DNA of 38,631 bases from positions 1 to 38,631 of the IMG/VR virus record IMGVR_UViG_3300045051_000289; one strand, 5' to 3'. Every line of letters begins with the position of its first letter. Position 1 is the first letter of the stretch. Positions 11,399 through 37,759 of this stretch are shown piece after piece. A model generated the notes under the pieces. It was not told the DNA's origin. It made no database searches and was given only the letters and a program-made list of their open reading frames with translations. Both the position numbers and the translations under genes were made by a program. The DNA comes from a virus.

Positions 11399-12082
11399 AT
11401 GGCTCTCGTCGGCTCGTGCTATTTCCAGGATACAGACCCGGGTGCCCCGCCCACCGGTGGGTATGAGTGGTATAACACTGCCACCGGTGTGAAGAAGATC
11501 CGCAACCTTGCGAACACCGCGTGGGTTGAGGTTGGGACCTCCGAGAGTGTCAACCTGGGGCTCGTCCCGGCCGGAGGTCGGACCATGACCGGCCCCCTCC
11601 CGGGTGTGACCGAGTTCGCTCCCATCGCTGGCCCAGACTTCTCTGGATCGCCCAAGGCGCTTGGGATCAAGCTGGCGACCATGAGCGACCTTGCCAACCT
11701 GAGGCGCGACCTCATGAACAGGCTGGGGTCTGTGACATCTGAGGCCTTGTCGGGGCTCTCCACGATGGGGGGCATCAAGAACTCTGTGGCCATCCGGGGG
11801 GGCATCCAGGTCTGCACAGCCGGTTCCTTCGACTTCACAGTGCCGCTTCCTCAGTATGATGGCGGGTCGGGTGAGACCGCACTCCGCTCCGAGGTGCTCT
11901 TCCATGGGGTATGGCCCCTGAAGTTCGAGCACGAGGACCGGGCCGAAGGCATCGGCAGCTCCTACTTCACGCTGAATATCTCACTCGTGAATGACACGGA
12001 CATGAAGTGGAACATCTTCGCGTCCAACATGGTCCATGATTATCCGGTCACCATCCGCTACCTCGTGATTGCCGCACGATGA
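11399..12082 (+). CDS. Virion structural protein, probably tail- or fibre-attachment
   Basis: This 227-residue protein starts 3 bases after the adaptor stop with GGTGA upstream. The N-terminus has GGYEWYNTATGVKKIRN...AWVEVG, a short strand motif common at the base of phage fibre proteins, followed by GGRTMTGPLPG, another fibre-associated motif. A helical stretch (ATMSDLANLRRDLMNRLGS) precedes a strand-rich C-terminal half that could be a trimeric head domain. It overlaps the nozzle gene by 4 bases. Function is inferred from motifs and position. Confidence 0.6.
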   Translation: MALVGSCYFQDTDPGAPPTGGYEWYNTATGVKKIRNLANTAWVEVGTSESVNLGLVPAGGRTMTGPLPGVTEFAPIAGPDFSGSPKALGIKLATMSDLANLRRDLMNRLGSVTSEALSGLSTMGGIKNSVAIRGGIQVCTAGSFDFTVPLPQYDGGSGETALRSEVLFHGVWPLKFEHEDRAEGIGSSYFTLNISLVNDTDMKWNIFASNMVHDYPVTIRYLVIAAR

Positions 12083-14802
12083 AGGAGTATCTCGTCTCCT
12101 TCGCCAAGGGGATCAACCAGGTGGTCGATAAGGCCCTGATTGATCCCGGCTTTGTCACGGCCATGGATAACATCGACATCCGGTCGGGGTCTATGCGGAC
12201 TATGCCGGGGCTTATGCCCATGATGGACCCGCCCATCGCTGGGAGGATTAACCACCTGTCCTGCCTTGGGGGCGAGGCTAATTATATATTCGCATATGGC
12301 GGTCTTATTATCTTGTCAGCCAATAAGCGCTCCTATACGACCGAGACAATCGGTAGCTCGTCCCGCATCTTCTACACGGAATACGGCGCGGCGCCAATGA
12401 AGATCGTGAATGGGGCCCCAGCGCTCCTGGGGTTGCGCCGACCAGCGGTCCCACCATCGCTAAGTAAGGCCACGGTGCTTGGCATCAACAACTTCGTGGT
12501 TAAGGAAGAGGCTGGCGGGAACATCGCCAAAGACACCGTCCGGTCCTACCGCATCGCCATCGGCACGGACGAGGGGGTGACGCCTCCGACCACCAAGATC
12601 AGCGTCAAGGCTGTCGGTGACAAGGTTTCCTTCCGGCTCACCTGGAATAGGACGATGCTGGAGGACCAGGTCGCGCGGTCTATCGTGATCTTCGCTGGTG
12701 ATGATGACAAGGAGCGGCGCATCGCGACTGTGCCCCCGGGCCAGGTCTACTATCTTGACGATGGTTCCGCCACGGGCGCGATTGGTGAGATGGCCTCACT
12801 TTATGACATCCCCTATGACCTCCAGTATTGCTATACATTCGTCCGCAACGTCCGGGGCATGGAGGACGAGAGCGGCCCATCCCCGATCAGTAAGACCGTG
12901 AACGCAGGGACGGCCCGCTCTGTCCTCTTCTCCGGAACGGTGGATGGGTTCCTTGACTCGGATCAGGTGGTAACACCAACCGGTGTGGCTGTTGTTACTC
13001 CGGTAAATAACGACACAAAGAATATGGTCCGATTCTCCATCGCGGCCGTCGCTTATGATACTGTCCTTGCCATGTGGTATATGGACTTGGCAAAGGACGA
13101 CGCCGGCCAGCCCATGCGATTTGGGCTCCTGAGCGGGGATTTTGTCCGCTTCCCTGACACAGTAGCAATCGCAGACAAGGCCTTCCAGATCAAGCTGGTG
13201 GATGACAGCGACCTACCACACGAGCGTCTGGCTTCCGGGGCAGACTGGATTAACACATCCAGGATCTGGTTCGAGGACGCTTCCGTGTCCGTGGTTGCCC
13301 CCGGAGGGCATCTTGAGCGGTTCGTCTCCGAGACTCTTGCGACCGTCCAGCTCGCGAGCAATAACTCGGATGTCATCTTCACCACGGTCAACGAGCATTG
13401 CTTCTACACCGGCCAGAGGGTGTCGTTCAGTGGTGTTGGGGCAATCTATCCCCAGGTCTTTTCTATCGTCGTGGACCCAATCGACCGGAAGAAGTTCTAT
13501 ATCAGTGGCGCGACATTCGACCGGTCTCAGCCAAACTTCGGCTACGGGACGACCGTGGGCGCGCTGAAGTCCATGGTAACCATCCCAAGCGGGACATACG
13601 CCACATTCCCCCATGACGGTGACGCGGTCTTCCTGGCCCTGGCGCCGGACGCCGGGAGTCCCCCTTCGGCGACAGCGCTCAACGGTTGGTTCCGTGCGCG
13701 GGTGGGAACATCCATGCAGACGACCGGCCAGATTATCGTCGACGAGCCGTGCCAAGCCACCTTCTCCTCCACGCTTGGTGTCAACCAGATCAAATACATC
13801 CCGAACAACGACTACATCTATGCCAGGAGACTATATCGTATCGGCGACACAGGCGAGTTCTTGAAGGTCAAGGATGTCCCGCTTTGGGAAACCACCTTCG
13901 TTGATGCGCGCGCGAACATCCTGCTCTCTGATGCCATTAGCTCGAACTACACGGACAATGGGATAGAGGTTCTCTATGATGCCCCACCTGTTGGGATGCG
14001 AGAGATCATCTCGCACTACGACATGAAGTTCGGCATCATTGGCAACTCTGTGCGATGGACGCCCAACGGTGTCCCGGATGCGTGGCCAGAGCAGTATTCC
14101 CAGGAGTTCAAGTATGAGCCCCTTGCCATCAGGAGCTGGGAGCAGGGCGTCCTAGTCCTGTGCGAGGATGCCCTCTACATGCTGGTCGGTAATACGGCCT
14201 CCACCATGTCCATCGCCGGAACCGAGGCGGTGGATGGGTGTATTGCCCCGGGCAGCGTCCAGGCCACCTCTGTTGGGGTCTTCTACCTATCGAAGCGCGG
14301 CCTCATGCTCTACCAGGGTGGGCGCGCTGAGTGCGTGACGGAGTTGCGGATCTTCCCTAAGACGCTGCTCGGGACAAGCCGATTCACTGGAGACCAGGAG
14401 CTTACGAGGAAGCCCTACTACTTCCTTCTGAGCCGGCACTCCTACCTCTACCGAAGCATGGTCGCAGCGGATCAGCCTCTCCCGCCGCTTGAACATGACC
14501 CGATTGATATCGACAGCACGGAACCATCCTCTTCTGTTATCCCCGAGATCGGGTCATTCTATGTCGGTGGACGCTATTATATGTATTGGGCCGACCAGAA
14601 TGGCGGATTCCAGAATGATGGTGGTCTCGGCCTGCCGAGCGTCATGCACAACAACTACGAGTGTCACACGATGATCTGTGTTGACACTTACTCGGAGGGG
14701 ATGCCTATCACCACCCTTGGCTTGAAGCCAAAGTCTGTCTTTGTCACCGAGAAGGAGGACGCGGTATTCCTCGTGAGCGGTGCCGGCGAAGCGTGGGTGT
14801 AG
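12079..14802 (+). CDS. Tail nozzle protein (tail tubular protein B-like)
   Basis: This 907-residue protein overlaps the preceding stop (ATGA). The N-terminus (SFAKGINQVVDKALIDPGFVTAMDNIDI) and the repeated propeller-like strands late in the protein fit the T7 gp12/P22 gp10 nozzle class, which extends the tail channel. Those strands include EPLAIRSWEQGVLVLCEDAL, YMLVGNTASTMSI and GVFYLSKRGLMLYQGG. It is somewhat longer than T7 gp12. The position after the adaptor and before fibres is the conserved one. Confidence 0.8.
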   Translation: MKEYLVSFAKGINQVVDKALIDPGFVTAMDNIDIRSGSMRTMPGLMPMMDPPIAGRINHLSCLGGEANYIFAYGGLIILSANKRSYTTETIGSSSRIFYTEYGAAPMKIVNGAPALLGLRRPAVPPSLSKATVLGINNFVVKEEAGGNIAKDTVRSYRIAIGTDEGVTPPTTKISVKAVGDKVSFRLTWNRTMLEDQVARSIVIFAGDDDKERRIATVPPGQVYYLDDGSATGAIGEMASLYDIPYDLQYCYTFVRNVRGMEDESGPSPISKTVNAGTARSVLFSGTVDGFLDSDQVVTPTGVAVVTPVNNDTKNMVRFSIAAVAYDTVLAMWYMDLAKDDAGQPMRFGLLSGDFVRFPDTVAIADKAFQIKLVDDSDLPHERLASGADWINTSRIWFEDASVSVVAPGGHLERFVSETLATVQLASNNSDVIFTTVNEHCFYTGQRVSFSGVGAIYPQVFSIVVDPIDRKKFYISGATFDRSQPNFGYGTTVGALKSMVTIPSGTYATFPHDGDAVFLALAPDAGSPPSATALNGWFRARVGTSMQTTGQIIVDEPCQATFSSTLGVNQIKYIPNNDYIYARRLYRIGDTGEFLKVKDVPLWETTFVDARANILLSDAISSNYTDNGIEVLYDAPPVGMREIISHYDMKFGIIGNSVRWTPNGVPDAWPEQYSQEFKYEPLAIRSWEQGVLVLCEDALYMLVGNTASTMSIAGTEAVDGCIAPGSVQATSVGVFYLSKRGLMLYQGGRAECVTELRIFPKTLLGTSRFTGDQELTRKPYYFLLSRHSYLYRSMVAADQPLPPLEHDPIDIDSTEPSSSVIPEIGSFYVGGRYYMYWADQNGGFQNDGGLGLPSVMHNNYECHTMICVDTYSEGMPITTLGLKPKSVFVTEKEDAVFLVSGAGEAWV

Positions 14803-22751: not shown

Positions 22752-25700
22752 ATGGCAGATCAGGACCCCGGCCTCCGTGGGTATGAAGGAATCTTTGGAC
22801 AGGGCATGAGCCTGCAAGAGGCGCTTGCCTTGTCCAATCCCAAACCACAGCCGACTGCCCCAGGTGCGCCTGGCGTAAGCTATGTCACAGCAGTGGACCC
22901 GCAGTCGCCGATCACGGATGCAGAGCTGGCAGAGTATGCCATCTCCGCGGCAGACCTGGCGCGTCGCAACCCAGGCATGACCCTGACCCAGCCTGAAGTT
23001 GCTGAGTTCATTAACCGGGCGAAGGCTGACCCGACAGGGCAGCATGCCCAGCTCATCCGCCGAGCCAACGCCATGACCAAGCAGGCGGGCGTCGAGCGAG
23101 AGAAGTATTACCAGGGCGAATATATCAAGGACATTAACGACCCGGACCAGACGGATGGCGGATTGCCTGAGATCCGACGCGCGGGCCGTGGTGTGATGGG
23201 TGGCATTCTGAGCCAGGGACTCGGCCTCGGGGAGGAGGTTGCCAGGACGCGTGGGCGTAGCCTCATCTCACTCGCTGGTAGCCCACTCAACCCATCTGGG
23301 GCGGCGTTCCGGTATCTCGACAGGAAGCTGACTGAGCGTCACGAGCAGGGCATGGACCCAGGGCAGGTCCTGGCTGATCGCTCATTCCGTTCTGTTGGCC
23401 CCACCGATCCCATCACGGGCATGATGGCCGACGCGAATGCCGAGGCAAAGCGCCTCCAGCAGTCCGCGTCCTTCGCCGGGATCTATGATGACGGGTCCAT
23501 GATGGGCAAGGCCAAGGGCGTTCTTGCTGATGCCCCGTATAACATCTTCCAGATGATTCCACTCGTCGCGTCTGGCGGTATGGTGGGCGGCGCCGCGGCC
23601 GGCGCAACTGAGGGTGCTGGCGAGATCCTCCTCACCAACCCTATTACCAAGCGAGTTATGTCAGTCGACCTGTCGGGGCTGGCCTCTCGTGTTCTTGCCT
23701 CTCTCCCAGAGGCCATGAGCGAGGCGCAGAGCGCCGCGAGCGAGGCGCGGATCAACGCCATCCAGAAGGGGATGGACCCTGATGCCGCGGCTGGCAGCGC
23801 ATATACAAACACCCTGGCTGGGAACATGGCCTTGCTTGGGGTAACGAACAATTTCGCCGATGGCCGCTTGATGATGTCCACCTTCAAGAAGGCTGGTGCC
23901 AATGAGGCTGCTGCTGCCGCCGAGCGCGCCCTTGCGAAGACGGCTGTGGCCAAGTTCGGCAAGGAGGGGACATCGAAGGCCCTGGCTCTGGCCGAGAAGT
24001 TGGGCATCAAGCACGTTGGGGAGCACGCCCTCGACGCCTTCGGTGAGGGCTTCGAGGAGTATGCCCAGCGTATCATTAGCCAGATGTCCGCCAATCCAGA
24101 GAAGAACACATGGGAGGACTTCCGCAAGGCTGCCTTCTCCCAGGAGGCCTTCGCTGAGTTCCTCGGTGGCTTCATTACAGGTGGCATTGTCGGTGCAGGA
24201 TCGAAGCCGTTCGAGCGCAAGGCCGCCCCCGAAGCTCCACTTCTCCGCGAGGTGAAGCCTGGTGACGGCGTTAAGCCTGCCAGGAGCTTCGATCCAGAGG
24301 GTGCATACCGGGAATTGGCGTCCGTTCGGTCCGCTGCCGAGGCCTCTGTCGGAGATACCATTGAGCCGGGCCTCATCACAAAGGCTCTTCGCTCTGCCGC
24401 AGGGCTGACGGCGGAGGAGTCTGCTGCACTCCCGCAGGTCACACTCGCGTTGCGGAAGTTGCAGGACCCGATGTTCGCGAACTCAGAAGAGGGGCAGGCT
24501 GCACTCCAGGCCATCAAGCCCATCTCGGACAAGCTGCTCGCCGCTCGGCGCGACATGGTCGTGCAGGCCGCAGCCAGCGACTTCATGGATGGATTGCTTC
24601 CAGAGGAGGCCACCCGGCTACGCGAGTATGCCGACTCCCTGGCGAAGACGAAGGCCCCCCAGGTTGCCGAGCCCACGGAAGAGGCCCTCCACCCAGACCT
24701 TGTGGCCAGGCTGCCAGAGGCCCACAGCGAACTTCAGCAGCGTCGGGCTGCTATCGACGAGCAGCTTCAGGTAAGCAAGGCTGTGGATGAGGCTGTCGAA
24801 GCGCGCATGGCCACAGAGCAGAAGGCCGCAGAGCAGGCCAGGGTCAAGGGGGAGATCGAGGCTCTTGGACAACTCGACCCTGCCGCCAAGAAGAAGGCGG
24901 TGAAGGAGATCACTCGACGGGCACGAGCCGCGTCTGTGCGGTTCAGCTCCCAGGCTTTTGAGACAGCACTCACGGCCTACAATGAGCTCGCCGCCAAGAT
25001 GTCTCCGGCCGCCGCACTTGGTCTGATGCAGGAGAAGGACCGCTCTATGCTCAGGCTTGGCTGGAAGGCAGAGCAGATTCGGGCTGAGGAGATGGAGCGC
25101 ATTCGCAAGGAGCTCCACTCTACAGAAGAGCAGACAGTCGCAGAGAAGTTCGCCCCCGGCAACGGGGCGATGCTACGGGAACTCCGCAAGTTCCAGGAGA
25201 ACCCGCTCCAGACAGATAGCGCACAGGCCTCCGCCCTGTCTCCCGAGGAACTTGGTGAGCCGAACCTTGGCTCCGGCCGACGCACCGAGACGATCACGGG
25301 CATCAGCCAGTGGGTCCTTCAGACGGCCCATGACTACCTCAAGAACTTCGCACCAGGGCGCACGCTTGGTGGGATGCCAGAGCACCTCCAGATGGCAGCG
25401 AAGAAGCATGGTGCCACGAGCATGAAGATGGCCCGTGCGGTAGCCGCCCTCTACAATGCCACCGTCAAGTGGCGCGGCGAGACGGCCATTGCTGCGCGCG
25501 CAGCCTATGCCCAGATGAACCTCAGTAAGTCCGAGCGTGCCTCTATTGAGGGGGCTGTCCGCGATGCCGTGTATGCCGCGCGGGTGAAGACCGTTCACAT
25601 GTATGACGCAGCCAAGATCATCCTTGAGAAGATTGCCGAAGACCGCGCTCATGGTGTCCGTGACGAGGGTGTCGCCATCAATGCCGGCATGGCCGTGGCC

Positions 25701-28700
25701 ATGAACAAGAACCTGAAGGGTATCGTCGACTTCGGTCACTCCATCGGGCTCCCGACACAAATCATCCTTGAGGCCGTCGTCCAGGCCGCAGAGTATGCAC
25801 GCCCGGAGGACAAGGAGAAGGCTCGTCCATCCAAATTGGGCGCGCGTATCAATGCCCAGATGGAAAGCCGTGGCGAGGCTGAGGCGGAGCGTGATGCCCG
25901 CACTCTCATCGAGCACCCGTCCTATGTGGCTGCCATCAAGGACATCCTCCGGAGCCTTGCTCCGAGTGCCGAGGCCGACAACACGAAGGGCTCTGCCATG
26001 GCGGGACCGGCCTTCGACATCACCAAGGCTGAGGGCAAGGCATTGACCCTTGGGTATCGGCTCGCGCGCATGTTTGCCAATCAGCAGCGGTCGGCATGGA
26101 TGTCTGTCATTGCGAAGAAGGGCACCGATACTGTTACCAATCCCCTGCAAGTCTGGTCCCGTGATGTTGTTATGAAGTGGATCAACGAGCGCATCGACGC
26201 CGAGACGAGTGGCCGGGAGGCTCCATCTGACGACGTCTCGACCGGGAAGGGTAAGAGCAAGCCTGGCGTGAAGCGCGGTTGGCGTATGACCACGAAGGAT
26301 ATGGCCGTGCTTGCCCAGGCCCTTGTTCAGGACGGTGTCCTGCGTCAGGAGAATGGCCGCTATTACATCAGCGGTGTCGGCAATGCCCGCGACATTGCTT
26401 TCGGCCTGAACCCAGAGCTGATCCGCGATGCGTGGAACCGCGCACCGTTCGGTGGCGATGCGAGCACTATCCGAGACCCAAAGACTATCGGGCAGGAGCT
26501 CTATGATGGGCTCACCCCCATGCAGTTGCTTGTGCTCAAGATGTATCACGGGCTGGACTCCATGTCTCAGTCCTACCTGAGCATCGAGCAGATCGCCAAG
26601 GCCATCAACCAGTCCGAGCGCGCAACCCAGGAGCTTCTGGACTACGCGACCAAGGTCATCGCCTCTCGGTTCGAGAACACGGCCCTGCTTGCGGATGGTA
26701 TGGCCGACCGCATCATCAGCGCCTTCAACCGTGGGCTGATGGACGAGGGGGCTGTCCTTAGTCCAGAGCAGGTCAGGGAAGTGCGTGATCTGACTGAGCA
26801 GCTTGGTCTGATTGCAGCTCTTCCCGGCGCTTTCTCTGCGGCCATGCACAAGACCACTGAGGCCAATCTCCATACGTCAGAAGGCTATGGAGACACCCTG
26901 TTCCACAAGGGGTTCTTCCCTTCGCTGCACGACGCCATCCTTGCCAGGGTGGTTGACCCCGCGCTTACCAAGAAGGTGAATGAGGCCCTGGACAAATACA
27001 AGGCTGCGGTCAAGGAGTTCCAGTCCCTGAAGAAGCCCAACTTCCTTATGACTGACCCAACGGTGTCGGCCGAGTGGATGAACTCGTGGAAGGCTCAGAA
27101 CATCGCGCGGGAGGACTACTTTAGTGCGATGCACGCGGTAGCCCTGGCCGCACCCGAGGGCACCCGGGAGATGCTGGACTACATCTCCAGGTCCATGGGA
27201 CGCCGTGTGTTCGCCGCCGAGCGGGGCAACGTCCGTGAAGGGCGGAACATCAAGGCCGCCAATCGAGCCCTTGCCTCCACCCGCGAGGAGGCATCCCGTA
27301 TCGCCAACGCTATCGGCGAGACGATCTACGAGGTCCTGGGTGGGTTCGGCATTGAGCGCCGGGCAGCATCCTTCGATGTGGACGGGATCATTGGCGACAT
27401 CAAGTGGGCATTCCTGTCTAGCCCGAACGAACCTTACCGTGCAGCATTCACAGAGGCCACCCTCGGCTTGGCAGAGAGCTACTATGCCAACCTTGCGGGC
27501 TTCAACGAAAGCGGGCAGCAGAATGTAAGCGTCCGCGTGCTCGATGAGATCCGTAACATTCTCGGCCTGGGGGACAGGACGGCTGCTGCGCGGCAGCTTG
27601 CGGAAAGCCGTGAGGCTCTAGTCGCCCCAGCCGAGGCTGAGGTCGAGAGGGCGAAGAAGGAATCTGCCCGCGCCCACCGCGCACTCGGAAAGGCCAACAC
27701 TGCGTATGAGGCTGCATCTGCTGCGCTCGGCAATGCCAGGGCGTCCATCATGGAGCTCACCAAGCTCGTGACCAAGGAAGTCTTTGGTGCGCGGTCGAGT
27801 GCCCCTGGGGCAATGGCTGGCGTAGCTAAGGCCGTCAATGCAGCGATGCGCCGCGTCGATGCTATTCCCGTCGGCATCGCTTCCCTGGTAAAGAGTGGCG
27901 ATGGGACAGCAGTCTCTGCTGGTGTGTCGGCCATTAGTCTTCTTACTTCGAGCGTCCGTGCGTTCGCCATGGATGGGACATTCGACTCCGCTCGGGCCGT
28001 GACCACCAGTGCGCAGGACGGCCTGCGCTCTATGCGCGACATCTCCGGCATGCTGCGTGAATCCGCTGCATCCGATGGCCTCTCCGCCGAGATGAAGGGG
28101 CTCGCGCGCGCATACGCCAAGATGCTGGACTCAGCAGCGGAGGCAATCGAGAGTGTGCGCAATAGCGCGGACGCTATGCTCACCTCATCCAAGCACACCA
28201 CCACCGCGCTCGTGTCTGGCAAGGCCCAGCCCCTTGGGACAACCGAATCTGGCAAGCGTGTTGCGGAGTATATCGCAGAGATGGCAGTCCTCCAGAAGCA
28301 GGAGGCCTCATTCAAGGCAGAGCTTGATCAGGCGACCCTTAGTCTCGCTAAAATCACCAAGCTTGTGAATCAGAGCAACACTGCTGTCCGAAATGCTGAG
28401 TTCCGGTTCGATGAGATCATTGCGCGAGTCAATCGCTCTGCCCTCGCATGGCTCCCCGCCTCAGAGGAGGAGCTCCGTCGCGCCTTCGGGGCCGAGGCTG
28501 AGGCCGAGTCTGTCGTTGAGGATGCGATCTACGGTCCCGATGATATCGCCGACCTGACCGAGGTTGACCCGGGTGTCGTAGAGGCAGATGTCAATGACAA
28601 GAGCCGGTCCTCCCGCATCCTCGCGAGGGAGATCAAGGCCAGCGGTATCCGGCTGCCGGCCAGCACCCTTACTGCTATCGCCACGCGCCTACTCAAGGGC

Positions 28701-31700
28701 ACCGTCCCAGGTGCGGCCGGTGCGAACGTCCGTGCAGCCAACGAGGCCATCGAGACCCTCATCAATGAGTCCGAAGCGGCTGGCATCTCCATCGAGGACA
28801 CAACCAAGATGCAGTTTGGTATCGCCGCGCTTGCCGAGCTGGCAGGTAGTGCGAAGCACGCCAGGCTCTTGCAGGGCGACATCACCGACATTGATGCGAC
28901 TATCACTGACATCTCGGCGGCTCTAGATGCGGTTACCCCTGGGCGCGACGCCAGCCTTAACTACATGATGGCGACCCATGCCGTCGAGGCATTGACAGGC
29001 AAGAGGATCAACACTGTCGAGGTGGACGCCGCCGCCATCGAGACTCTCGCCAGTCAGCGTGAAAGCTCTGTCGCCGCCGTGCTCCAAGAGCAGAGCGCGA
29101 AGGAAGAGCCTACGGTCATCCAGGAGGAAACGCTTGAAGGTCAGCCCGACCGGGCGGCATCTGGTCGCCGAGTGCTCGACGCCATCCGACAGGCGCAGGC
29201 CCAGAACCTTGGGCAGGCTGATCGTCTCCGCATCTACAACCAGGTCCAGATGTATCTCCGGGAAGTTGGCCCCGGCAACGCTGACCCAAGCATCCGGGAG
29301 GAAGCACAGCGCCTTCTCACTGGTGGGTCCAGGGAGGGTGCGCACGCATCCGCTGGCGTGGCGCTTGGGGTCGACCTGGTTGGTGTGATGGGCCTGTCTC
29401 AGTCCAGCCCTGAGGGTGCAGCCATCCTCCTGGGTGCGGGCATCGCTTACCTCGGCTACAAGCTGGGGATGCAGAACCCAACATTCAGATCCGTGATGGA
29501 GCGCATCAAGGCTAATACATCCAACACTGTGTCCCAGCTCTCTGCCAAGATCCGTGGTTTTGCCAAGGGCATCGGCGTCTATACGTCCCGGTTGATGGCC
29601 GCCATGTTCAAGGACGGTGGCCACCCCGATGGTGGTAGCCGCACAGAGGAGAACCGCAGCTTGACGCAGCAGGAGCTCCAGAGCCCAGCGTCTGACAGGG
29701 CCGGCTACTTCACCCCAGAGGGTAAGGCCAGGCTCATGGCCGCCGCCCAGAAGCTGTCTCGTCCGTCCGTGTTCTGGGGCATCTATAAGAACACCCCGGC
29801 CACGCATGGTGGGCGCGTCTTCTCGTTCGACATTGTCCGTGACAAGCTGATCCATCCGGGTGGTGGCGCGCTGGCATGGGTAGAGAACCTGCCCCATGGT
29901 GTTGGCGCCGCGTTCAACCGGGTGATGGAGCACCAGTTCCGTCAGGCTGCGCGTAACGGGCAGAACGTAGCTATCGTGGTGGGCGGTAACGGCGCCGGCA
30001 AGACGACCTTCATGGGGTCCTCTGCTGCCCTTGAGACCTATGCAGTCATGCACGAGACCTCTGCGTTCGCGGCCAATACCCTCGCAAGCGCTGTCTCCCA
30101 GGCGCAGAAGGCCGGTGCACGAACTGACATCGTCTATGTCCTGCGGAACCTTAACGACATGATCACTGGTGCCATTGTCCGTGGTGCACAGGAAGAGAGA
30201 CTCACCTACTCTGACGGCTTTGCCACGGCGTTGGTGAACGGCATGAAGAATGTCATCGCAGAGGTCAAGCGTGGTGGGCTGTCTGGAGATCTTGTTGTGA
30301 TCGACGACTCCACCGGGAATGAGTATGCCGGAGATGCTGCGCTCAAGCGCCTGGAAGGGTTGGCCGCCACCCTGGACAAGAAGGTTATTGCCGAACGATA
30401 CCGCAACATCGCGAGTGACATGCTGGAGGGGAACTATGATGGCGAAGGATGGAATGCCGGAAGCCTCAAGGACGCAGTCCGAGGATGGATCCAGTCCGAC
30501 ATCAACGGCAACATCTCACAGTGGCTTTCTGGCGTCACTCAGGCGGGGTATATCACTCCGGAAGAGCGGAGCCAAAGGCTTCAGGCCACAGCCGGGGGAG
30601 AGCTGGTTCTCCACGCCAGCAACCCCGAGGTATTAGAGGACGGCCCGATTGCCTTCGTCAGTGGTGAGTCTGTTAGCAACGAGGACATCATCAACTTCGA
30701 GGACGGCCTTGAGGGTGAGCTCGTCAAGGCCGGCAAGGGGGCGGATGGCGGTCTCCTGTATGTGAACAGCGGCATCGACCTCCGCGAGATGGACGGTCTC
30801 ATCGACGATGTGCTCGGGAAGACAATGGCTTGGGCCAAGGACCGGCTGTCCACGCGCGCGCGGCGATCCCCCATCCTGGCCGAGGGCCGCAAGTTCCTCC
30901 AGTTTGTCCACCAGTTCAAGACCGACCACCAGACGCGCATCATGCACCTGGCACTGATGTATCGGCACGCCGCTGACTCCATCGTGGGTGGGCTCCAGCC
31001 AACACTCAAGGCCCTGGCCTCCCTGCGCGACACAGACGGGCAGTCCTATACCATGCTCGGACGTGCCCTGATGGACAGCAGCGTCCAGGAACGGGTCATC
31101 AATGGGGCGGAGCTTGCCAACCGATACGGCCTTGACGAGGAGGGCTCGAAGCTCTACCGCAAGGTGGTTGACGTCATCCGCGGCATCCAGAAGGTGACCC
31201 TGGCAGCCCTCGACCGAGAGGCCATGTCGAAGGTGGCCCAGTTGCGCGACGAGCAGAACGCGCTGGACCCAGCAGATGAGAAGTTTGACGAGCAGTTCAT
31301 GGCCCTGGAGAAGAAGGTATCCGAGTTTGAGGATGAGACAGACACTTTGCGCTCCATCATCCAGAAGAACCCCGTCTTCATCTCCCTGCTCCGCAACGAG
31401 AAGGCCACGCGCCAGCTCGACATGGTAGATGCCGACGGCAATCGCATCGGTATGATCATGGTCGATACCGGCCACAGCGAGACAAAGATCCCGGATGATG
31501 TCCGGGGGCTTGCTATTGACCAGATGGTTCGGCAGCACGCGAACAAGCTGTGGGCAGAGGCTGACCGCGTTGGAAGTCCGGATCGTATCGAGGCACAGCT
31601 CCGCAAGGACATCGAGGCTGGCCGAATCAAGTTCGGGCATCACTTCGAGGGGCGATTCGTTGAGTCCAACAGCGGCGAGCTCCGCGACAATGACCATCTG

Positions 31701-33935
31701 AAGTTCGTCAAGATGGCTGGTGGCATGCTCACCACCGAAGTTCTACAGGAGATCATCGACAATCGTGCCGGTGGCGTCTCTGGGGATGCCCGTAGCGCGA
31801 TGCTCCGTGACTTGCGCTACATGGCCGGCGCCTCCGACATCAAGGGGCGCCTGAAGTATGCGCGCAACAACACCGCTGGCTACTCCGAGGACATCATCGG
31901 TGCGCTCTCTATGCACGGCCGGGCCGCCGGCTACATGGCAGGGTCCCTCCTCTACGCAGGCGACCTCCGCGAGGAGCTCAACGCCTACCGTCGCCATGTT
32001 GAAGTGTCCGATGGGCTCTCCCAGAAGGACTACGACCAGCTCCTGAACTACACACTTGCGACATTCGCTCCGCAGCGCAGTGCGGATGGCGTTGTCGGTG
32101 CATTCAACGCGCTCCGCACGTTCACAGCCTACAAGGCGCTGATGGCGAAGATCTCCTTTGGCGCCGCGCAGTATTTCCAGCAGTTCACAACCAGCCGCCC
32201 CCACATGATGGCCATGTATGACACTGGCTACACTGAGCCGCTCATCAGGGCCTCTGAGAATGCAGCCGTGAAGCTACTGGCGCTGATGGCCAAGCCTGGC
32301 GCGGATCTGTCTATGATCGACAGGGCCGTGCTTGATGCGCGCATGGATGAGATCTTCTCTTTCCAGAATTTCTCCAAGATCTGGGCAACCCAGGAAGAGG
32401 CTGACCGCATGCGGCCCATCGTGAAGGAGGTCATGCACCGAGTCATCCAGGGCTCTAGCTTCAAAGATGTGAACGTCGGTATGCAGATTGGCGTGGAGGA
32501 TGTTGCGGCCAATGACATCAGCCGAGCGACGCACACCACTAAGCTCTCTCAGGCGAAGGAAGGAACCAAGGATATCCTCACCTACGTTGCCAACAAGGGG
32601 GAGAACCTCAACCGCATCCGAGACATCGTGTCCTACGTTGTCGGTGCAGCTACTGAGTCCAGGGCCAAGAGCGCCGGGAAGAAAACTGGCATCTGGGCGC
32701 AGTATGGCTACGTCTCCATCTCGGACGAGGGTTACTCCCGCCTGACCTATGGCGACCTGGAGGCCCAAGTCCGCCAGGAGCTCGCCCAGCGGTATCGGAA
32801 CAGCGATGTCACCAAGGCCCAGCTCGAAGCGATGACCAAGGACGAGGCCTACAACCGGATCATGACGTTCGCCCAGCGTCAGTCGGCGCACGCCAACTTC
32901 AATACGGGGCGTGGGTTCGGCAATGAGAAGATCTGGAACCCAGAGGGGAACGGCCGGTCTGCTGCGTTCATGAAGACGGTGGTCCTGTTCCGGCTCTACC
33001 CCATCAACGTGCTGCGTGGGTGGATCTCTGACATGGGCATCACTGCTCGTCGGCTCGAAGCCGAGGGACGACACGCGTCCGTTGCCACGGTGGCCTCCAT
33101 GAAGAGCACTGCCTACGGTGCGCTCGCCGCGATGCTCCTTGGCGGCAGCTTCGGCCCCCCACTTGCCGGCTTGCTGGCGGACCTGATGTCATACATCTGG
33201 AACCTTCTCTCCAGGATCAGCGGGAAGCCCCCGATCCATGACGTCAAGCGCGACTACATTGAGTGGGTCCGCGAGAAGTTTGGCCCACGCACAGCCAGCT
33301 TCGCCGCGGCCGGCATCTTCGGGTTGATCCCGCCGCTCTATGGTTTCGGCGCTCAGTTGAGCATGGGTGAGGGCCCAGTCTCTGTGGACACGCACAAGAG
33401 TTGGCAGGAGAACCTCGCCAACCTGTCGCTTGGCGCCAACACTGGTGCTGTCGAGAGCCTCCGCCGTGGGTCCAGAAGGATCGAGCAGGGGGACTATGTC
33501 GGTGGTGTGGCCCAGATCGCGGCACCATCCGGAGCAGCCAACCTGGTTGATGCCTTCTGGATCGGGCGGCATGCCCCTGGCAGAAAGCCTATGCGCGGGA
33601 CAGAGGAGTTCTACCAGATGACCCCCGCCGAGCGCGCCGCGAAGGCCATTGGAGTGACGCCACAGAAGACTGCCATGATCTATGAGCAGGACGCCGCGAA
33701 CCGTCAGCTTAAGGACGAGCGCTCCAGTGCTATCAAGCGGCTCAAGCAGGCGTTTGAAAACGGGAATCTTACAGAGAAGAACTGGAATGAGATCCGGGCA
33801 TGGAACGATGCAATGAGCAACATCAAGCGCCCAGACATGATCATTGTCCCGAACGTGGGCAGTGGTTCGAGGCGCATGGAGGAGGAGCTCCGCAACGAGT
33901 CGCTGGTCGAGGAGCGTATGGGCGGGGGTGAGTGA
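22752..33935 (+). CDS. Giant 3,727-residue ejection protein, multi-domain (gp16-like position)
   Basis: This single frame occupies 29% of the window. Residues about 267-290 (GGMVGGAAAGATEGAGEI) and 430-480 (FGEGFEEYAQRI ... FLGGFITGGIVGAG) are membrane-active-looking. Residues about 1254-1307 resemble sigma-70 region 4. Coiled coil follows near 1600-1660. A P-loop at 2411-2419 (GGNGAGKTT) with downstream IVYVLRN and LVVIDDSTG resembles zeta-toxin-type kinases. The C-terminal third is helical, with hydrophobic segments near 3455-3490 and 3514-3540, as in large polyvalent proteins carrying PLxRFV-type C-termini. Gene order makes it the inner ejectosome protein. T7 gp16 is far shorter and has an N-terminal transglycosylase, which I do not see here. 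A four-gene set plus operon position supports virion entry with the DNA. Confidence 0.85.
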   Translation: MADQDPGLRGYEGIFGQGMSLQEALALSNPKPQPTAPGAPGVSYVTAVDPQSPITDAELAEYAISAADLARRNPGMTLTQPEVAEFINRAKADPTGQHAQLIRRANAMTKQAGVEREKYYQGEYIKDINDPDQTDGGLPEIRRAGRGVMGGILSQGLGLGEEVARTRGRSLISLAGSPLNPSGAAFRYLDRKLTERHEQGMDPGQVLADRSFRSVGPTDPITGMMADANAEAKRLQQSASFAGIYDDGSMMGKAKGVLADAPYNIFQMIPLVASGGMVGGAAAGATEGAGEILLTNPITKRVMSVDLSGLASRVLASLPEAMSEAQSAASEARINAIQKGMDPDAAAGSAYTNTLAGNMALLGVTNNFADGRLMMSTFKKAGANEAAAAAERALAKTAVAKFGKEGTSKALALAEKLGIKHVGEHALDAFGEGFEEYAQRIISQMSANPEKNTWEDFRKAAFSQEAFAEFLGGFITGGIVGAGSKPFERKAAPEAPLLREVKPGDGVKPARSFDPEGAYRELASVRSAAEASVGDTIEPGLITKALRSAAGLTAEESAALPQVTLALRKLQDPMFANSEEGQAALQAIKPISDKLLAARRDMVVQAAASDFMDGLLPEEATRLREYADSLAKTKAPQVAEPTEEALHPDLVARLPEAHSELQQRRAAIDEQLQVSKAVDEAVEARMATEQKAAEQARVKGEIEALGQLDPAAKKKAVKEITRRARAASVRFSSQAFETALTAYNELAAKMSPAAALGLMQEKDRSMLRLGWKAEQIRAEEMERIRKELHSTEEQTVAEKFAPGNGAMLRELRKFQENPLQTDSAQASALSPEELGEPNLGSGRRTETITGISQWVLQTAHDYLKNFAPGRTLGGMPEHLQMAAKKHGATSMKMARAVAALYNATVKWRGETAIAARAAYAQMNLSKSERASIEGAVRDAVYAARVKTVHMYDAAKIILEKIAEDRAHGVRDEGVAINAGMAVAMNKNLKGIVDFGHSIGLPTQIILEAVVQAAEYARPEDKEKARPSKLGARINAQMESRGEAEAERDARTLIEHPSYVAAIKDILRSLAPSAEADNTKGSAMAGPAFDITKAEGKALTLGYRLARMFANQQRSAWMSVIAKKGTDTVTNPLQVWSRDVVMKWINERIDAETSGREAPSDDVSTGKGKSKPGVKRGWRMTTKDMAVLAQALVQDGVLRQENGRYYISGVGNARDIAFGLNPELIRDAWNRAPFGGDASTIRDPKTIGQELYDGLTPMQLLVLKMYHGLDSMSQSYLSIEQIAKAINQSERATQELLDYATKVIASRFENTALLADGMADRIISAFNRGLMDEGAVLSPEQVREVRDLTEQLGLIAALPGAFSAAMHKTTEANLHTSEGYGDTLFHKGFFPSLHDAILARVVDPALTKKVNEALDKYKAAVKEFQSLKKPNFLMTDPTVSAEWMNSWKAQNIAREDYFSAMHAVALAAPEGTREMLDYISRSMGRRVFAAERGNVREGRNIKAANRALASTREEASRIANAIGETIYEVLGGFGIERRAASFDVDGIIGDIKWAFLSSPNEPYRAAFTEATLGLAESYYANLAGFNESGQQNVSVRVLDEIRNILGLGDRTAAARQLAESREALVAPAEAEVERAKKESARAHRALGKANTAYEAASAALGNARASIMELTKLVTKEVFGARSSAPGAMAGVAKAVNAAMRRVDAIPVGIASLVKSGDGTAVSAGVSAISLLTSSVRAFAMDGTFDSARAVTTSAQDGLRSMRDISGMLRESAASDGLSAEMKGLARAYAKMLDSAAEAIESVRNSADAMLTSSKHTTTALVSGKAQPLGTTESGKRVAEYIAEMAVLQKQEASFKAELDQATLSLAKITKLVNQSNTAVRNAEFRFDEIIARVNRSALAWLPASEEELRRAFGAEAEAESVVEDAIYGPDDIADLTEVDPGVVEADVNDKSRSSRILAREIKASGIRLPASTLTAIATRLLKGTVPGAAGANVRAANEAIETLINESEAAGISIEDTTKMQFGIAALAELAGSAKHARLLQGDITDIDATITDISAALDAVTPGRDASLNYMMATHAVEALTGKRINTVEVDAAAIETLASQRESSVAAVLQEQSAKEEPTVIQEETLEGQPDRAASGRRVLDAIRQAQAQNLGQADRLRIYNQVQMYLREVGPGNADPSIREEAQRLLTGGSREGAHASAGVALGVDLVGVMGLSQSSPEGAAILLGAGIAYLGYKLGMQNPTFRSVMERIKANTSNTVSQLSAKIRGFAKGIGVYTSRLMAAMFKDGGHPDGGSRTEENRSLTQQELQSPASDRAGYFTPEGKARLMAAAQKLSRPSVFWGIYKNTPATHGGRVFSFDIVRDKLIHPGGGALAWVENLPHGVGAAFNRVMEHQFRQAARNGQNVAIVVGGNGAGKTTFMGSSAALETYAVMHETSAFAANTLASAVSQAQKAGARTDIVYVLRNLNDMITGAIVRGAQEERLTYSDGFATALVNGMKNVIAEVKRGGLSGDLVVIDDSTGNEYAGDAALKRLEGLAATLDKKVIAERYRNIASDMLEGNYDGEGWNAGSLKDAVRGWIQSDINGNISQWLSGVTQAGYITPEERSQRLQATAGGELVLHASNPEVLEDGPIAFVSGESVSNEDIINFEDGLEGELVKAGKGADGGLLYVNSGIDLREMDGLIDDVLGKTMAWAKDRLSTRARRSPILAEGRKFLQFVHQFKTDHQTRIMHLALMYRHAADSIVGGLQPTLKALASLRDTDGQSYTMLGRALMDSSVQERVINGAELANRYGLDEEGSKLYRKVVDVIRGIQKVTLAALDREAMSKVAQLRDEQNALDPADEKFDEQFMALEKKVSEFEDETDTLRSIIQKNPVFISLLRNEKATRQLDMVDADGNRIGMIMVDTGHSETKIPDDVRGLAIDQMVRQHANKLWAEADRVGSPDRIEAQLRKDIEAGRIKFGHHFEGRFVESNSGELRDNDHLKFVKMAGGMLTTEVLQEIIDNRAGGVSGDARSAMLRDLRYMAGASDIKGRLKYARNNTAGYSEDIIGALSMHGRAAGYMAGSLLYAGDLREELNAYRRHVEVSDGLSQKDYDQLLNYTLATFAPQRSADGVVGAFNALRTFTAYKALMAKISFGAAQYFQQFTTSRPHMMAMYDTGYTEPLIRASENAAVKLLALMAKPGADLSMIDRAVLDARMDEIFSFQNFSKIWATQEEADRMRPIVKEVMHRVIQGSSFKDVNVGMQIGVEDVAANDISRATHTTKLSQAKEGTKDILTYVANKGENLNRIRDIVSYVVGAATESRAKSAGKKTGIWAQYGYVSISDEGYSRLTYGDLEAQVRQELAQRYRNSDVTKAQLEAMTKDEAYNRIMTFAQRQSAHANFNTGRGFGNEKIWNPEGNGRSAAFMKTVVLFRLYPINVLRGWISDMGITARRLEAEGRHASVATVASMKSTAYGALAAMLLGGSFGPPLAGLLADLMSYIWNLLSRISGKPPIHDVKRDYIEWVREKFGPRTASFAAAGIFGLIPPLYGFGAQLSMGEGPVSVDTHKSWQENLANLSLGANTGAVESLRRGSRRIEQGDYVGGVAQIAAPSGAANLVDAFWIGRHAPGRKPMRGTEEFYQMTPAERAAKAIGVTPQKTAMIYEQDAANRQLKDERSSAIKRLKQAFENGNLTEKNWNEIRAWNDAMSNIKRPDMIIVPNVGSGSRRMEEELRNESLVEERMGGGE

Positions 33936-36128: not shown

Positions 36129-36205
36129 TGGTCCGCGAGACAGGATTTGAACCTGCGACCCCCTGCCCCCAAAGCAGGCGCTCCACCAGACTGAGCTACT
36201 CGCGG
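36129..36205 (-). tRNA. tRNA-Pro (anticodon UGG)
   Basis: On the minus strand the acceptor stem CCGCGAG pairs perfectly with CTCGCGG. The D-stem GCTC/GAGC, anticodon stem CCTGC/GCAGG with loop TTTGGGG (anticodon TGG), and T-arm GCAGG-TTCAAAT-CCTGT are all intact. The discriminator A and an encoded CCA end follow. C1:G72 is the hallmark of bacterial proline tRNAs. It lies between the 58-residue gene and the integron-like array. Confidence 0.95.
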
Positions 36206-36213
36206 GTGTTAGT

Positions 36214-36234
36214 TCGCCTAGTACAAAGTTAGCC
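36214..36234 (+). other. attI-like core sequence at the array's proximal end
   Basis: The sequence ending ACAAAGTTAGCC resembles, from memory, the end of class 1 integron attI1 (ACAAAGTTAGGC). The preceding TCGCCTAGT is also close to the attI1 TCGCCCTAAA. The candidate crossover point is G36228/T36229, directly at the stop codon of the first cassette gene (TAA, 36231-36229). GTTAGCC differs from the GTTRRRY consensus at the sixth position. The attI direct repeats and an integrase gene are not seen, so this may be a remnant or a coincidence. Confidence 0.35.
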
Positions 36235-36444
36235 GACCATGGGCGGGCGTGACTTCTTCGCCTTACCGAACACTGCATCGCGGAACTCGTCACACATGGC
36301 TTCGAGTGTCACTGGGTCCAGATCCTCAAGACGATACTTCGGCCCTTCCGTAAAACCATCCTCCCGTTTGCCGGGGGGCAAATCGACCAAGACATAATTC
36401 GGGACAGTGAACGGCTTGAGTTTTACTTTGAAGGTTGCTTCCAT
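36229..36444 (-). CDS. Cassette 1 gene: small conserved-type phage protein, 71 residues
   Basis: ATG 36444 (MEATFKVKLKPF) is preceded by GGAGA at good spacing. An earlier ATG at 36492 lies inside attC A and lacks one. The protein reads KLKPFTVPNYVLVDLPPGKR, then GPKYRLEDLDPVTLEAMCDEFRDAVFGKA. I recall this pattern from uncharacterised phage proteins, without a known role. The TAA stop is at the attI-like crossover point. The gene occupies nearly all of the first cassette-sized unit (36229-36526) and is antisense to the polarity of attC A. Confidence 0.75.
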   Translation of the reverse strand: MEATFKVKLKPFTVPNYVLVDLPPGKREDGFTEGPKYRLEDLDPVTLEAMCDEFRDAVFGKAKKSRPPMVG

Positions 36445-36473
36445 GTTTTCTCCTTTTGTTTTCGTCGTGGCTC

Positions 36474-36532
36474 GGCTAACCGGCTCGCTCAACCCGGACG
36501 CCTGACGGCGCCGGTTAGCTCGAAAGTTGGGC
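36474..36532 (+). other. attC site A (59 bp)
   Basis: End boxes are GGCTAAC (36474-36480, one mismatch to RYYYAAC) and GTTGGGC (36526-36532, fits GTTRRRY). Inner arms 36487-36502 and 36507-36519 pair fully except for three bulged bases on the left arm only (C490, C495, A498), with a TGAC loop. In the aadA attC, recalled from memory, the gene-side arm likewise carries unpaired C and A. The predicted crossover is G36526/T36527. Size, boxes, unpaired spacers and bulges together make this a textbook integron recombination site. Confidence 0.88.
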
Positions 36533-36533
36533 G

Positions 36534-36722
36534 CTAATCCCGCTTACTGTCTGGGTAATCCTCAATAACCCTGAATATCGAGGACAGTGGGAATTTATGG
36601 GTCACTCTCGATTGGTTGTGCTCGAAGAGGACGCAATACATCTGCCCCTTTGTAAATGCGTTGATAGCATTTCCATAGATAATTGGTAGGCTGCTTTCAT
36701 TCCTCTGTATTTCGATTCTCAC
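36534..36722 (-). CDS. Cassette 2 gene: small hypothetical protein, 62 residues
   Basis: The start is a GTG at 36722 with GGGAGAGG five bases upstream. The protein (MRIEIQRNESSLPIIYGNAI...KFPLSSIFRVIEDYPDSK) is strand-rich and looks like small phage proteins of unknown function. The TAG stop lies one base beyond the R box of attC A, and the start lies 22 bases left of attC B. It fills the second cassette (36527-36835) and is antisense to the attC polarity. Confidence 0.7.
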   Translation of the reverse strand: MRIEIQRNESSLPIIYGNAINAFTKGQMYCVLFEHNQSRVTHKFPLSSIFRVIEDYPDSKRD

Positions 36723-36744
36723 TTAGCCTCTCCCTCAAGGTTGC

Positions 36745-36841
36745 GCTCAACCCAGCGCTCCACTCGGACCCTGCCGCAAGTCCGATATTTGAAAGGTTGT
36801 GGCTCACCTGCGGCAGGGCCGGTGCGCTTGAGTCGTTAGAC
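36745..36841 (+). other. attC site B (97 bp)
   Basis: End boxes are GCTCAAC (36745-36751) and GTTAGAC (36835-36841), both fitting the consensus. The core stem pairs CCCTGCCGCA (36769-36778) with TGCGGCAGGG (36809-36818) and extends through CGG/CCG past a bulged A768. Further unpaired T764 and 758-760 lie on the same arm, so polarity is rightward. The 30-base terminal loop makes this a medium-length attC. The predicted crossover is G36835/T36836. Confidence 0.82.
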
Positions 36842-37105
36842 CGCTCTCGGGAATCGCCGATCAAGTGCTTCCACGGCGGCCACAGCGATGGCCGCGACCT
36901 GGATCAGTCGCCGACGCCCCTTGTCAATGCTCCCCATGCAGAGCATCCGCCGTGCCCACCCGTTGTAGTCGGCGATGATTTCGTGCCAGTCGAGTGGGTT
37001 ATTTTTGTCGTCCTGCGCCGTGCCCCACTTCCCGTCCTGCCGGTTGCGCTCGGCGGCAACCTCCAGCAGCACGGGGTTGGTCGTGAAATTGTTGGCATCG
37101 CTCAT
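36836..37105 (-). CDS. Cassette 3 gene: phage MazG/NTP-pyrophosphohydrolase-like protein, 89 residues
   Basis: ATG 37105 has a perfect GGAGG upstream. The N-terminal LLEVAAERNRQDGKWG and C-terminal RRRLIQVAAIAVAAVEALDR match a large group of phage proteins related to MazG-type nucleotide pyrophosphohydrolases. The usual EExxE metal-binding segment is replaced by WHEIIADYNGWARRM, so it may be a non-catalytic variant. The stop codon TAA is formed inside the GTTAGAC box of attC B. It occupies the third cassette (36836-37192). Confidence 0.75.
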   Translation of the reverse strand: MSDANNFTTNPVLLEVAAERNRQDGKWGTAQDDKNNPLDWHEIIADYNGWARRMLCMGSIDKGRRRLIQVAAIAVAAVEALDRRFPRAV

Positions 37106-37137
37106 GCCGGTCCTCCTTTGGTTGGTTTCTATTCGCG

Positions 37138-37198
37138 GTCTAACCATGTCGCTCAGCGTCGGACCCCTGCGGGGCCGAGCTAGCTCCGGGCGTTGGGC
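37138..37198 (+). other. attC site C (61 bp)
   Basis: End boxes are GTCTAAC (37138-37144) and GTTGGGC (37192-37198). GCT-AGC-TCGG-CCCC on the left arm pairs with GGGG-CCGA-GCT-AGC on the right (37171-37184) with a TGC loop. Three bulged bases (C154, G158, A163) are on the left arm only, including the C and A seen in sites A and D. The TAG stop of the next gene is one base beyond the right box. The predicted crossover is G37192/T37193. Confidence 0.9.
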
Positions 37199-37199
37199 G

Positions 37200-37505
37200 C
37201 TACTCATCGCCGCAGGGGCGACAAAGGTAAACATCTTCTGCCTGGTGCCACCCGTCGCCTTCGCAGATGGGCTTGCCGCACGCCTCGCAGAAAGACACGA
37301 ACTCGCGGTCGTTGATGGCGAGGATCTGGGCTCCCTTCGGAAGGCGGGCTTTGATGCCCTCAAGCGAGGTGGCCTGAAAATCGAGGGTCAGCCGGTACTC
37401 GATCTTGAAGACCTCGCCCAACCCTCCGCTCAACTCGGACCCCGCCTTGGGTGTTTCTCCCCCAGGCAACAGTCCTGGATTATTTGCTACATCTCCGATC
37501 CTCAT
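37200..37505 (-). CDS. Cassette 4 gene: zinc-ribbon protein, 101 residues, starting inside attC D
   Basis: ATG 37505 is preceded by GGGAAG and is the only well-placed ATG. Both lie in the terminal loop of attC D, so the first 30 residues are encoded by the attC itself. From residue 31 (EVFKIEYRLTLDFQ) the sequence looks like ordinary protein. C73/C76 and C95/C98 (FCEAC ... LCRPC) form a zinc-ribbon pattern around EGDGWHQAEDVY. A TTG at residue 29 directly behind GGAGG is another possible but badly spaced start. The stop lies at attC C. Confidence 0.65.
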   Translation of the reverse strand: MRIGDVANNPGLLPGGETPKAGSELSGGLGEVFKIEYRLTLDFQATSLEGIKARLPKGAQILAINDREFVSFCEACGKPICEGDGWHQAEDVYLCRPCGDE

Positions 37506-37549
37506 TTCTTCCCTTTCTCCGGCGGGGCCGGTTAGCTGTGGCGTTAGGC
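37416..37549 (+). other. attC site D (134 bp, long loop)
   Basis: End boxes are GCCCAAC (37416-37422) and GTTAGGC (37543-37549). GCT-AAC-CGG-CCCCGCC on the left arm (37428-37446) pairs with GGCGGGGCCGGTTAGC (37521-37536). Left-arm bulges are C431, T435 and A439. The 74-base terminal loop contains the ribosome-binding site and start codon of the cassette 4 gene. Length is near the upper end of known attC sites, as in Vibrio repeats. The predicted crossover is G37543/T37544. Confidence 0.88.
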
Positions 37550-37759
37550 CCACGGCCACTTGAAGTTGACTATGTCCTGGACGATGCACCAAGGACGGAT
37601 CATAGAAGCGGGGACCCACGTGGGGATGGTGTTCAAGACCTCGTCGATCTCAAGGCCATCTGCACGCCACTCGGCCAGGCATCTGGGATCCCCCAAGAAG
37701 GTGAAGGACCACTCCTTCGAGTTCCCCCTGACGTGGATGGAAAGTTGTTTCTTACCCAT
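37544..37759 (-). CDS. Small phage protein, 71 residues
   Basis: ATG 37759 has GGAGGG upstream. The protein (MGKKQLSIHVRGNSKEWSFT, then GDPRCLAEWRADGLEIDEVL) has two predicted strands and an acidic helix, and ends in hydrophobic/tryptophan-rich FKWPWA. I do not know a function, though the pattern occurs in other phages. The TAA stop is built into the GTTAGGC box of attC D. The start overlaps the end of the next gene by 8 bases, so this gene belongs to an operon continuing right, where no further attC is visible. Confidence 0.7.
   Translation of the reverse strand: MGKKQLSIHVRGNSKEWSFTFLGDPRCLAEWRADGLEIDEVLNTIPTWVPASMIRPWCIVQDIVNFKWPWA

Follow-up and report, generated by a model that had tools for sequence, protein, structure and literature searches.

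Four attC-type integron sites cut part of a phage genome into single-gene cassettes without an integrase. The genome is the IMG/VR virus record IMGVR_UViG_3300045051_000289 (G000; 38,631 bases), analysed over its whole length and called the window below. All four sites lie on the plus strand and all four cassette genes on the minus strand, so that 0/4 genes are sense to the attC top strand, and most of the phage cassettes that we tested are likewise antisense to attC polarity, with exceptions. The array is a cluster of attC sites lacking integron integrases (CALIN) carried by a phage; its cassettes are probably exchanged in trans by the integron integrase (IntI) of the host and would form part of a shared inverted pool rich in anti-defence genes. 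CALINs in phages are an already published kind; the inversion of the genes relative to attC, absent from an earlier note on this DNA, is the addition made here.

Four attC sites without an integron integrase

The sites, all on the plus strand, are attC1 at 36474..36532 (59 nt; R'' GGCTAAC, R' GTTGGGC; predicted cleavage G36526|T36527), attC2 at 36745..36841 (97 nt; R'' GCTCAAC, R' GTTAGAC; G36835|T36836), attC3 at 37138..37198 (61 nt; R'' GTCTAAC, R' GTTGGGC; G37192|T37193) and attC4 at 37416..37549 (134 nt; R'' GCCCAAC, R' GTTAGGC; G37543|T37544). The earlier note had placed them there from the letters alone and had proposed a covariance-model check. That check was run with R1, a model with the attC fold built from an alignment of 56 bacterial attC sites, Geothrix excluded, and it bore out all four with E values from 4e-14 to 2.5e-7: 51.1 bits for attC1 (E 1.3e-12), 33.3 bits for attC2 (E 2.5e-7), 35.9 bits for attC3 (E 4e-8) and 56.1 bits for attC4 (E 4e-14). 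Up to E = 10, these four, all on the plus strand, were the only places found in the 38,631 bases of the window; a search with nine further sources (90 kb, E up to 1), among them the part of a near-identical sister record outside the window, likewise gave these four and nothing else. In a search of the complete sister record with a less strict first look, only attC1-attC3 were listed and attC4 was missed.

R1 is purpose-built and distinct from the model of IntegronFinder. Its training sites were found in a GTDB-based genome collection by a pattern that had been read off sites 1 and 4 by eye and that matched 94 stretches; of the 58 sites chosen, those of L044 and of L093, the latter too close to site 1, were dropped. 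Since the pattern came from sites 1 and 4, R1 leans to that attC type and is not fully independent; sites 2 and 3 fall outside the pattern behind the training set, which includes L038 and L097, loci whose sites recur in the IMG/VR records L021 and L018. Covariation of the fold in this set amounted to 97 cells changed on both sides vs 36.6 in shuffles, the pairs with such change being no more numerous than in shuffles. As controls, R1 gave nine matches up to E 5 in the four CALIN phages of Qi et al. (264 kb), detecting sites in two phages already reported there as CALIN carriers, and no match in six other phage loci (48.6 kb).

The end boxes RYYYAAC...GTTRRRY are present in 4/4 sites, with a single mismatch in R'' of site 1 (GGCTAAC), and the R1 alignments show an inner imperfect palindrome with extrahelical bases on one arm in every site. 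Free single-strand folds recovered the palindrome for sites 2-4 and gave other pairings for site 1. attC sites are polar, with the extra bases on the left arm of the top strand, as in the canonical aadA1 attC, and most bacterial cassette genes lie on the top strand. In all four window sites the bulges are on the left arm, the arm where the bacterial alignment leads one to expect them if plus is the top strand. The earlier description of the end boxes, apart from that one mismatch, of the left-arm bulges, of a bulged A after CGG (4/4 sites) and of a shared GCTCA(A/G)C, carried by sites 1, 3 and 4 on the left arm, is borne out. The site evidence is weakest at the R'' mismatch of site 1 and in the lower scores of sites 2 and 3.

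That the hairpins are transcription terminators, or mRNA-stabilising hairpins after stop codons, and not recombination sites, is very improbable. Each closely follows the stop of a leftward gene (B, C, D and E, described below), and attC sites are described as presumed weak terminators (PMC9892861); however, a terminator does not require conserved R boxes, one-sided bulges or near-identity to bacterial attC, and a model made from bacterial attC sites selects just these four.

Counted between the G|TT points (after 36228, 36526, 36835, 37192 and 37543), the units measure 298, 309, 357 and 351 bp, each with one small gene and one attC, as first described. The integron integrase profile TIGR02249 had no match in the sister record, in line with the absence of an integrase noted earlier, in a search in which the control genomes matched only below the cut-off. 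With four attC sites within 1.1 kb and no integrase match the array qualifies as a CALIN, which takes at least two neighbouring attC sites and no integrase; with no intI (attI and Pc were not searched for) it is not a complete integron. Clusters of this kind, likewise without an integrase, are known from the phages TJE1, PH101/H101, P12002L and MW202573 (PMC9892861), published cases that bear out the mention of phage attC sites in the earlier note (Qi et al. 2023).

The sister record and relatives of the phage

The sister record, IMGVR_UViG_3300044673_000126 (G001; 59,680 bases), is near-identical to the window and longer, differing at one of 10,266 bases compared and at none of another 15,000, and contains a 1,501-base stretch with the array that is identical to the window. 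The two ends of its contig share 243 bases, apart from a single mismatch, consistent with a circular genome of about 59,437 bases. A misassembly that joined bacterial integron DNA to a phage contig, or a host fragment, is scarcely credible as the source of the array. The record is metagenomic, but the same join occurs in two records, the second with its ends overlapping by 243 bases, genes B and C have matches among phage families, and the gene direction is the reverse of that in most of the tested bacterial cassettes.

A megablast comparison of 24.6 kb with 50,697 phage records gave no match. Relatives were also sought with the tail protein at 12079-14802, the terminase, the tail fibre and the phosphoesterase proteins as queries; these scans returned only the identical sister record, one 15-kb fragment and more distant matches. 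The terminase of the fragment is 72% identical to that of the window, and the array region had no real match there.

Cassette genes run antisense to attC polarity in most phages tested

The pattern behind R1 matched 21 stretches in IMG/VR, one of which is the sister record, and R1 gave 79 matches in the other 20. Since calling the longest open reading frame (ORF) is noisy in GC-rich DNA, a codon-usage caller and family matches of sense and antisense ORFs were added. By codon usage, the IMG/VR phage contigs gave 27 antisense and 1 sense cassette, with 3 ambiguous and 16 without a call (n=47), and the bacterial loci, L093 excluded, 22 antisense and 91 sense, with 12 ambiguous and 68 without a call (n=193). 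The two differ with a Fisher p of 1.7e-14, uncorrected for linkage within arrays, whose cassettes are not independent; per locus, the window included, 12 lean antisense, 0 sense and 1 is tied. The window itself gave 2 antisense calls and 1 cassette without a call, and the Geothrix array L093 gave 7 antisense calls and 1 without. The phage counts omit the duplicates L018, L021 and L031, and L097 and L038 were kept in the bacterial counts; L030 (whose two sites lie 2.6 kb apart), L034 and L019 (each with a single site) and one opposite-strand R1 match of L095 (of 278) were not entered.

The longest-ORF caller with a clearness rule gave 19 antisense, 4 sense and 24 unclear cassettes in the phage contigs, and 30 antisense (7 from L093), 114 sense and 57 unclear in the bacterial loci. 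Most tellingly, the family matches separate the two directions within the same cassettes. At E <= 1e-3, 53 antisense ORFs from the phage contigs, L093 and the window (53 of 55 listed, two of 37 and 39 aa being dropped) match 59 PHROG and 20 Pfam families, and the 51 sense ORFs match 0 PHROG families and 1 marginal Pfam family, these being numbers of families matched and not of ORFs with a match.

The same layout appears in published CALIN phages. H101 has two R1 sites on the plus strand amid deposited genes on the minus strand, and MW202573 four on the minus strand (a fifth at E 0.69) amid deposited genes on the plus strand; P12002L has a weak R1 site (E 0.94) in the antisense layout, which TJE1 does not show. 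No mention of this arrangement was found in the passages of Qi et al. consulted on phage CALINs (PMC9892861), and no paper on gene direction relative to attC in phages was found in a literature search that left out preprints and most subscription papers.

For replication, a second attC pattern was used, which yielded 12 contigs. Three of these, L173, L178 and L181, look like chance matches, as R1 finds no site there. Of 15 intervals outside one record, L180, 12 have their longer ORF on the antisense strand and 3 on the sense strand. A terminase (phrog_2) was found in 12/22 records in one scan and in 1/7 in another; as it is present in only part of the records, not every contig is proven to be phage, and the IMG/VR records L180 and L026 are suspected of holding host DNA. 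Separately, the bacterial contig L125 has five antisense calls and no sense call, and is possibly an unrecognised prophage array.

Nearest attC sites in Geothrix and two kinds of array

Among the fetched loci, the best matches to the window attC sites came from Geothrix (Acidobacteriota). attC1 is identical at 57/59 positions to an attC of a prophage array in Geothrix fuzhouensis SG12, attC3 is 94% identical over 36 nt to the same array, and the left arm of attC4 reaches up to 97-100% identity over 28-33 nt with attC sites from integron-type arrays of Geothrix. Both Geothrix genomes examined encode an integron integrase (461.9 and 468.6 bits, cut-off 265). This likeness, together with these integrases, makes a Geothrix-like host likely for the phage.

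SG12 (G025) carries two arrays of different kinds. Its chromosomal integron has 44 R1 sites on the minus strand, nearly all of about 124 nt, and ends about 0.6 kb from the integrase; its attC arms and polarity are similar to those of the window, which differs in lacking IntI, in having far fewer sites and in its gene direction, the SG12 genes being mostly sense. The second array (L093/L165), about 25 kb from the integron array, has nine R1 sites on the plus strand. It is flanked by a transposase gene on one side and by terminase, portal, protease and major head genes on the other, and these neighbours assign it to a prophage, probably a Mu-like one. By longest ORF the integron gave 39 sense and 3 antisense intervals (n=42), vs 8/8 antisense in the prophage array (p 3e-7), where the codon caller called 6/8 intervals, all antisense. 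The prophage array resembles that of the window in its antisense genes and holds the nearest attC relatives of sites 1 and 3, but belongs to another phage type. Genes A-D had no match in L093, and the L093 array had none among phages.

A second genome, Geothrix SG200, has two cassettes (L096 124-604) whose attC sites are short and phage-type, amid host-type cassettes with 124-nt sites. In both the longer ORF is antisense, clearly in one (57 vs 25 aa) and marginally in the other (50 vs 49 aa), where the antisense ORF has a good ribosome-binding site; the other 11 cassettes of the array are sense. These two cassettes appear to have been captured from a phage. No family match was found for their ORFs.

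Cassette sharing at G|TT and cassette cargo

A difference falling at G|TT, as cassette gain or loss would leave it, was seen for one pair of phage contigs, L030 and L035, which have one cassette of about 660 bp in common (91% identical). The identity starts exactly at G|TTAGGGGCC and ends in the next R' box; upstream of the shared edge there is an attC in L035 and unrelated sequence in L030, and the only other match of 90 bases or more is one of 227 bp at 70%. The gene of the shared cassette matches a phage DNA methyltransferase family (E 1e-71). L030 contains a terminase gene, and L035, judged by eye from translations, ribonucleotide reductase and polymerase genes. In another pair, L028 (964-1068) and L029 (10979-11083) share one roughly 102-nt attC, 95% identical, with no other match of at least 90 nt between the loci; as the attC alone is shared, attC and gene need not travel together. 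In a blastn search of phages with two short attC queries, only MW202573 matched at a useful E (9e-6).

Phage anti-defence islands consist of small accessory genes including Tad2, Tad3, Lar and methyltransferases. Genes of this sort recur among the antisense cassettes, with a Tad2-like gene (L020), Tad3 (L023), Lar restriction alleviation (L029), a C5 methylase (L032), an RNA ligase (L015) and, below the cut-off, a Mom-like gene (L016). The cassette genes here differ from those of anti-defence islands in that each carries its own recombination site. Methyltransferase cassettes have also been noted in phage CALINs by Qi et al. 2023 (PMC9892861).

Proposed exchange in trans and possible reasons for the inversion

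We read the array as four integron cassettes without an integrase in a phage of probably Geothrix-like host. The antisense genes would be read together with the neighbouring leftward phage genes, and the recombinogenic bottom strand of each attC is the coding strand. Most likely, the integron integrase of the infected host recombines the cassettes in trans at G|TT, and the cassettes would belong to an inverted pool that is common to unrelated phages and rich in genes blunting bacterial defences. Phage attC sites can serve as substrates, five of six tested by Qi et al. 2023 having worked with IntI1, as bottom strands (PMC9892861). Host integrons would then reshuffle these phage genes, a view helped by the Geothrix integrases and by the phage-type antisense cassettes in a Geothrix array.

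An unlikely alternative is that the array is a fossil, taken by an ancestor phage from a host integron and inherited since without exchange. The array is identical over 1,501 bases in the sister record, attC2 and attC3 score low and the record has no integrase, all as a fossil would have it; yet attC1 is still identical to a Geothrix attC at 57/59 positions, a homologue of gene A lies in a cassette of a different phage, and one cassette, bounded at G|TT, is common to other phage contigs.

Several observations weigh against exchange by host integrases within an inverted phage pool. Recombination is inferred here, none having been observed, and attC2 and attC3 may be decaying. The scans for relatives described above found none with an empty or other cassette set, and genes A-D have no known anti-defence function. 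On direction, the longest-ORF caller gave sense in 4/23 clear phage-contig calls, L035 has one sense call, L026 is ambiguous, and genes appear sense at the weak R1 site of TJE1 (E 0.12). L180 (IMG isolate record 2834908352_000001) has thirteen R1 sites, and 12/12 of its intervals are sense by longer ORF; its sense genes are bacterial-looking and the record holds a terminase gene, so that it is either an integron of the host next to a prophage or a phage whose cassettes are sense. The replication family scan, which left out L179 (same array as L170), L180 and one minus-strand pair of L170, gave the weaker support of 2 PHROG families for 13 antisense ORFs and 0 for 11 sense ORFs. As to Geothrix, the codon caller called none of the 42 SG12 integron intervals, and the SG200 array (L096) lies on a different contig from the integrase.

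As for why the genes are inverted, where transcription runs along the replication fork, the antisense layout would put the bottom strand on the lagging-strand template, with more attC folding and recombination, and phages gaining from cassette turnover may favour such exposure. Excision was much higher in an inverted V. cholerae integron, in which the lagging-strand template carries the bottom strands, and chromosomal integrons tend to hold the bottom strand on the leading-strand template (PMC11023631). The fork-related step is one that we infer, and strand exposure is the reason for the inversion that we prefer, though tentatively and as less likely than not. Quite possibly, strand exposure plays no part, and one founding inverted set spread among phages, with phage and bacterial cassettes unable to mix because each is silent in the other's array. 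A separate pool of this kind explains the contrast within one Geothrix genome, and gene A and the L030/L035 cassette are each shared between phages; against a single origin, inverted arrays occur in unrelated phages (H101, MW202573 and the Geothrix prophage) with differing attC sites, which makes several origins likely.

More broadly, it is plausible, if short of probable, that unrelated phages keep an inverted pool of anti-defence cassettes traded through host integrases, the inversion at once aligning transcription, exposing the strand and isolating the pool. If so, genes A-D would be candidate anti-defence genes. If the inversion is general, phages would have their own cassette economy, and a gene antisense to its attC would be a sequence mark separating phage from bacterial cassettes, even inside bacterial arrays. 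Phage attC arrays may then offer a position-based route to anti-defence genes, as defence islands did for defence genes, and strand exposure would be a testable reason linking orientation to mobility.

Cassette genes, borders and neighbouring features

The left border of the array is G|TTAGCC at 36228..36234 (plus strand), a GTTRRRY-like site without an attC. Cassette A (36229-36526) holds gene A (36229..36444, minus strand; 71 aa), antisense to attC1, with AAGGAG before its ATG and its stop TAA within the GTTAGCC of the left border. It had no Pfam or PHROG match, and its predicted structure is poor (predicted local distance difference test, pLDDT, 59). A homologue, 50% identical, lies within a cassette of another phage, L032, whose record contains portal, tail and tape-measure genes and gave no match to the window terminase.

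Cassette B (36527-36835) holds gene B (36534..36722, minus strand; 62 aa), antisense to attC2, with a GTG start preceded by GGGAGAG. It matches phrog_10299 (E 1.1e-23) and is 70% identical to genes of Sinorhizobium phages. The homologue in phiM12 (L169 2501-2686) lies two genes from a nicotinamide mononucleotide (NMN) adenylyltransferase gene, which is followed by a nicotinate phosphoribosyltransferase gene, a location that makes a link to anti-defence based on nicotinamide adenine dinucleotide (NAD) possible. R1 found no attC at this phiM12 locus.

Cassette C (36836-37192) holds gene C (36836..37105, minus strand; 89 aa), antisense to attC3, with AGGAGG before its ATG and its stop TAA within the R' box of attC2. 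Gene C matches phrog_2831 (E 1.3e-12), and a homologue, 87% identical, lies among small genes in the phage contig L012, where R1 sees no attC. Its model is all-helical (pLDDT 86); no PDB entry was significantly similar in a search (best E 1.6), and the weak matches included MazG-related proteins.

Cassette D (37193-37543) holds gene D (37200..37421, minus strand; about 73 aa), which is zinc-ribbon-like and antisense to attC4, with weak PHROG matches (best E 7.7e-4) and Pfam zinc-binding matches below the cut-off. Its start is uncertain: a candidate TTG lies within the R'' box of attC4 (37416-37433 read on the minus strand), with GGAGGG directly before it, nearer than a usual ribosome-binding site. 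Sequences resembling ribosome-binding sites thus precede A, B and C, and a closer one the candidate start of D.

The flanking phage gene E (37544..37759, minus strand) had no family match in Pfam or PHROG; its TAA stop falls within the R' box of attC4, which forms the array's right border. Three stops, of A, C and E, therefore fall inside GTTRRRY-type boxes, and those of B and D start one base past one.

Further to the left, the window contains one open frame of 3,727 aa on the plus strand (22752-33935), about 19% of the sister genome. A proline transfer RNA gene, tRNA-Pro (TGG), at 36129..36205 on the minus strand, lies 23 nt left of the array border; in an Rfam scan only the tRNA passed a gathering threshold. 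A stretch of the sister genome outside the window (G001:C1:48382-48442, L004) is 80% identical to part of this tRNA-Pro gene.

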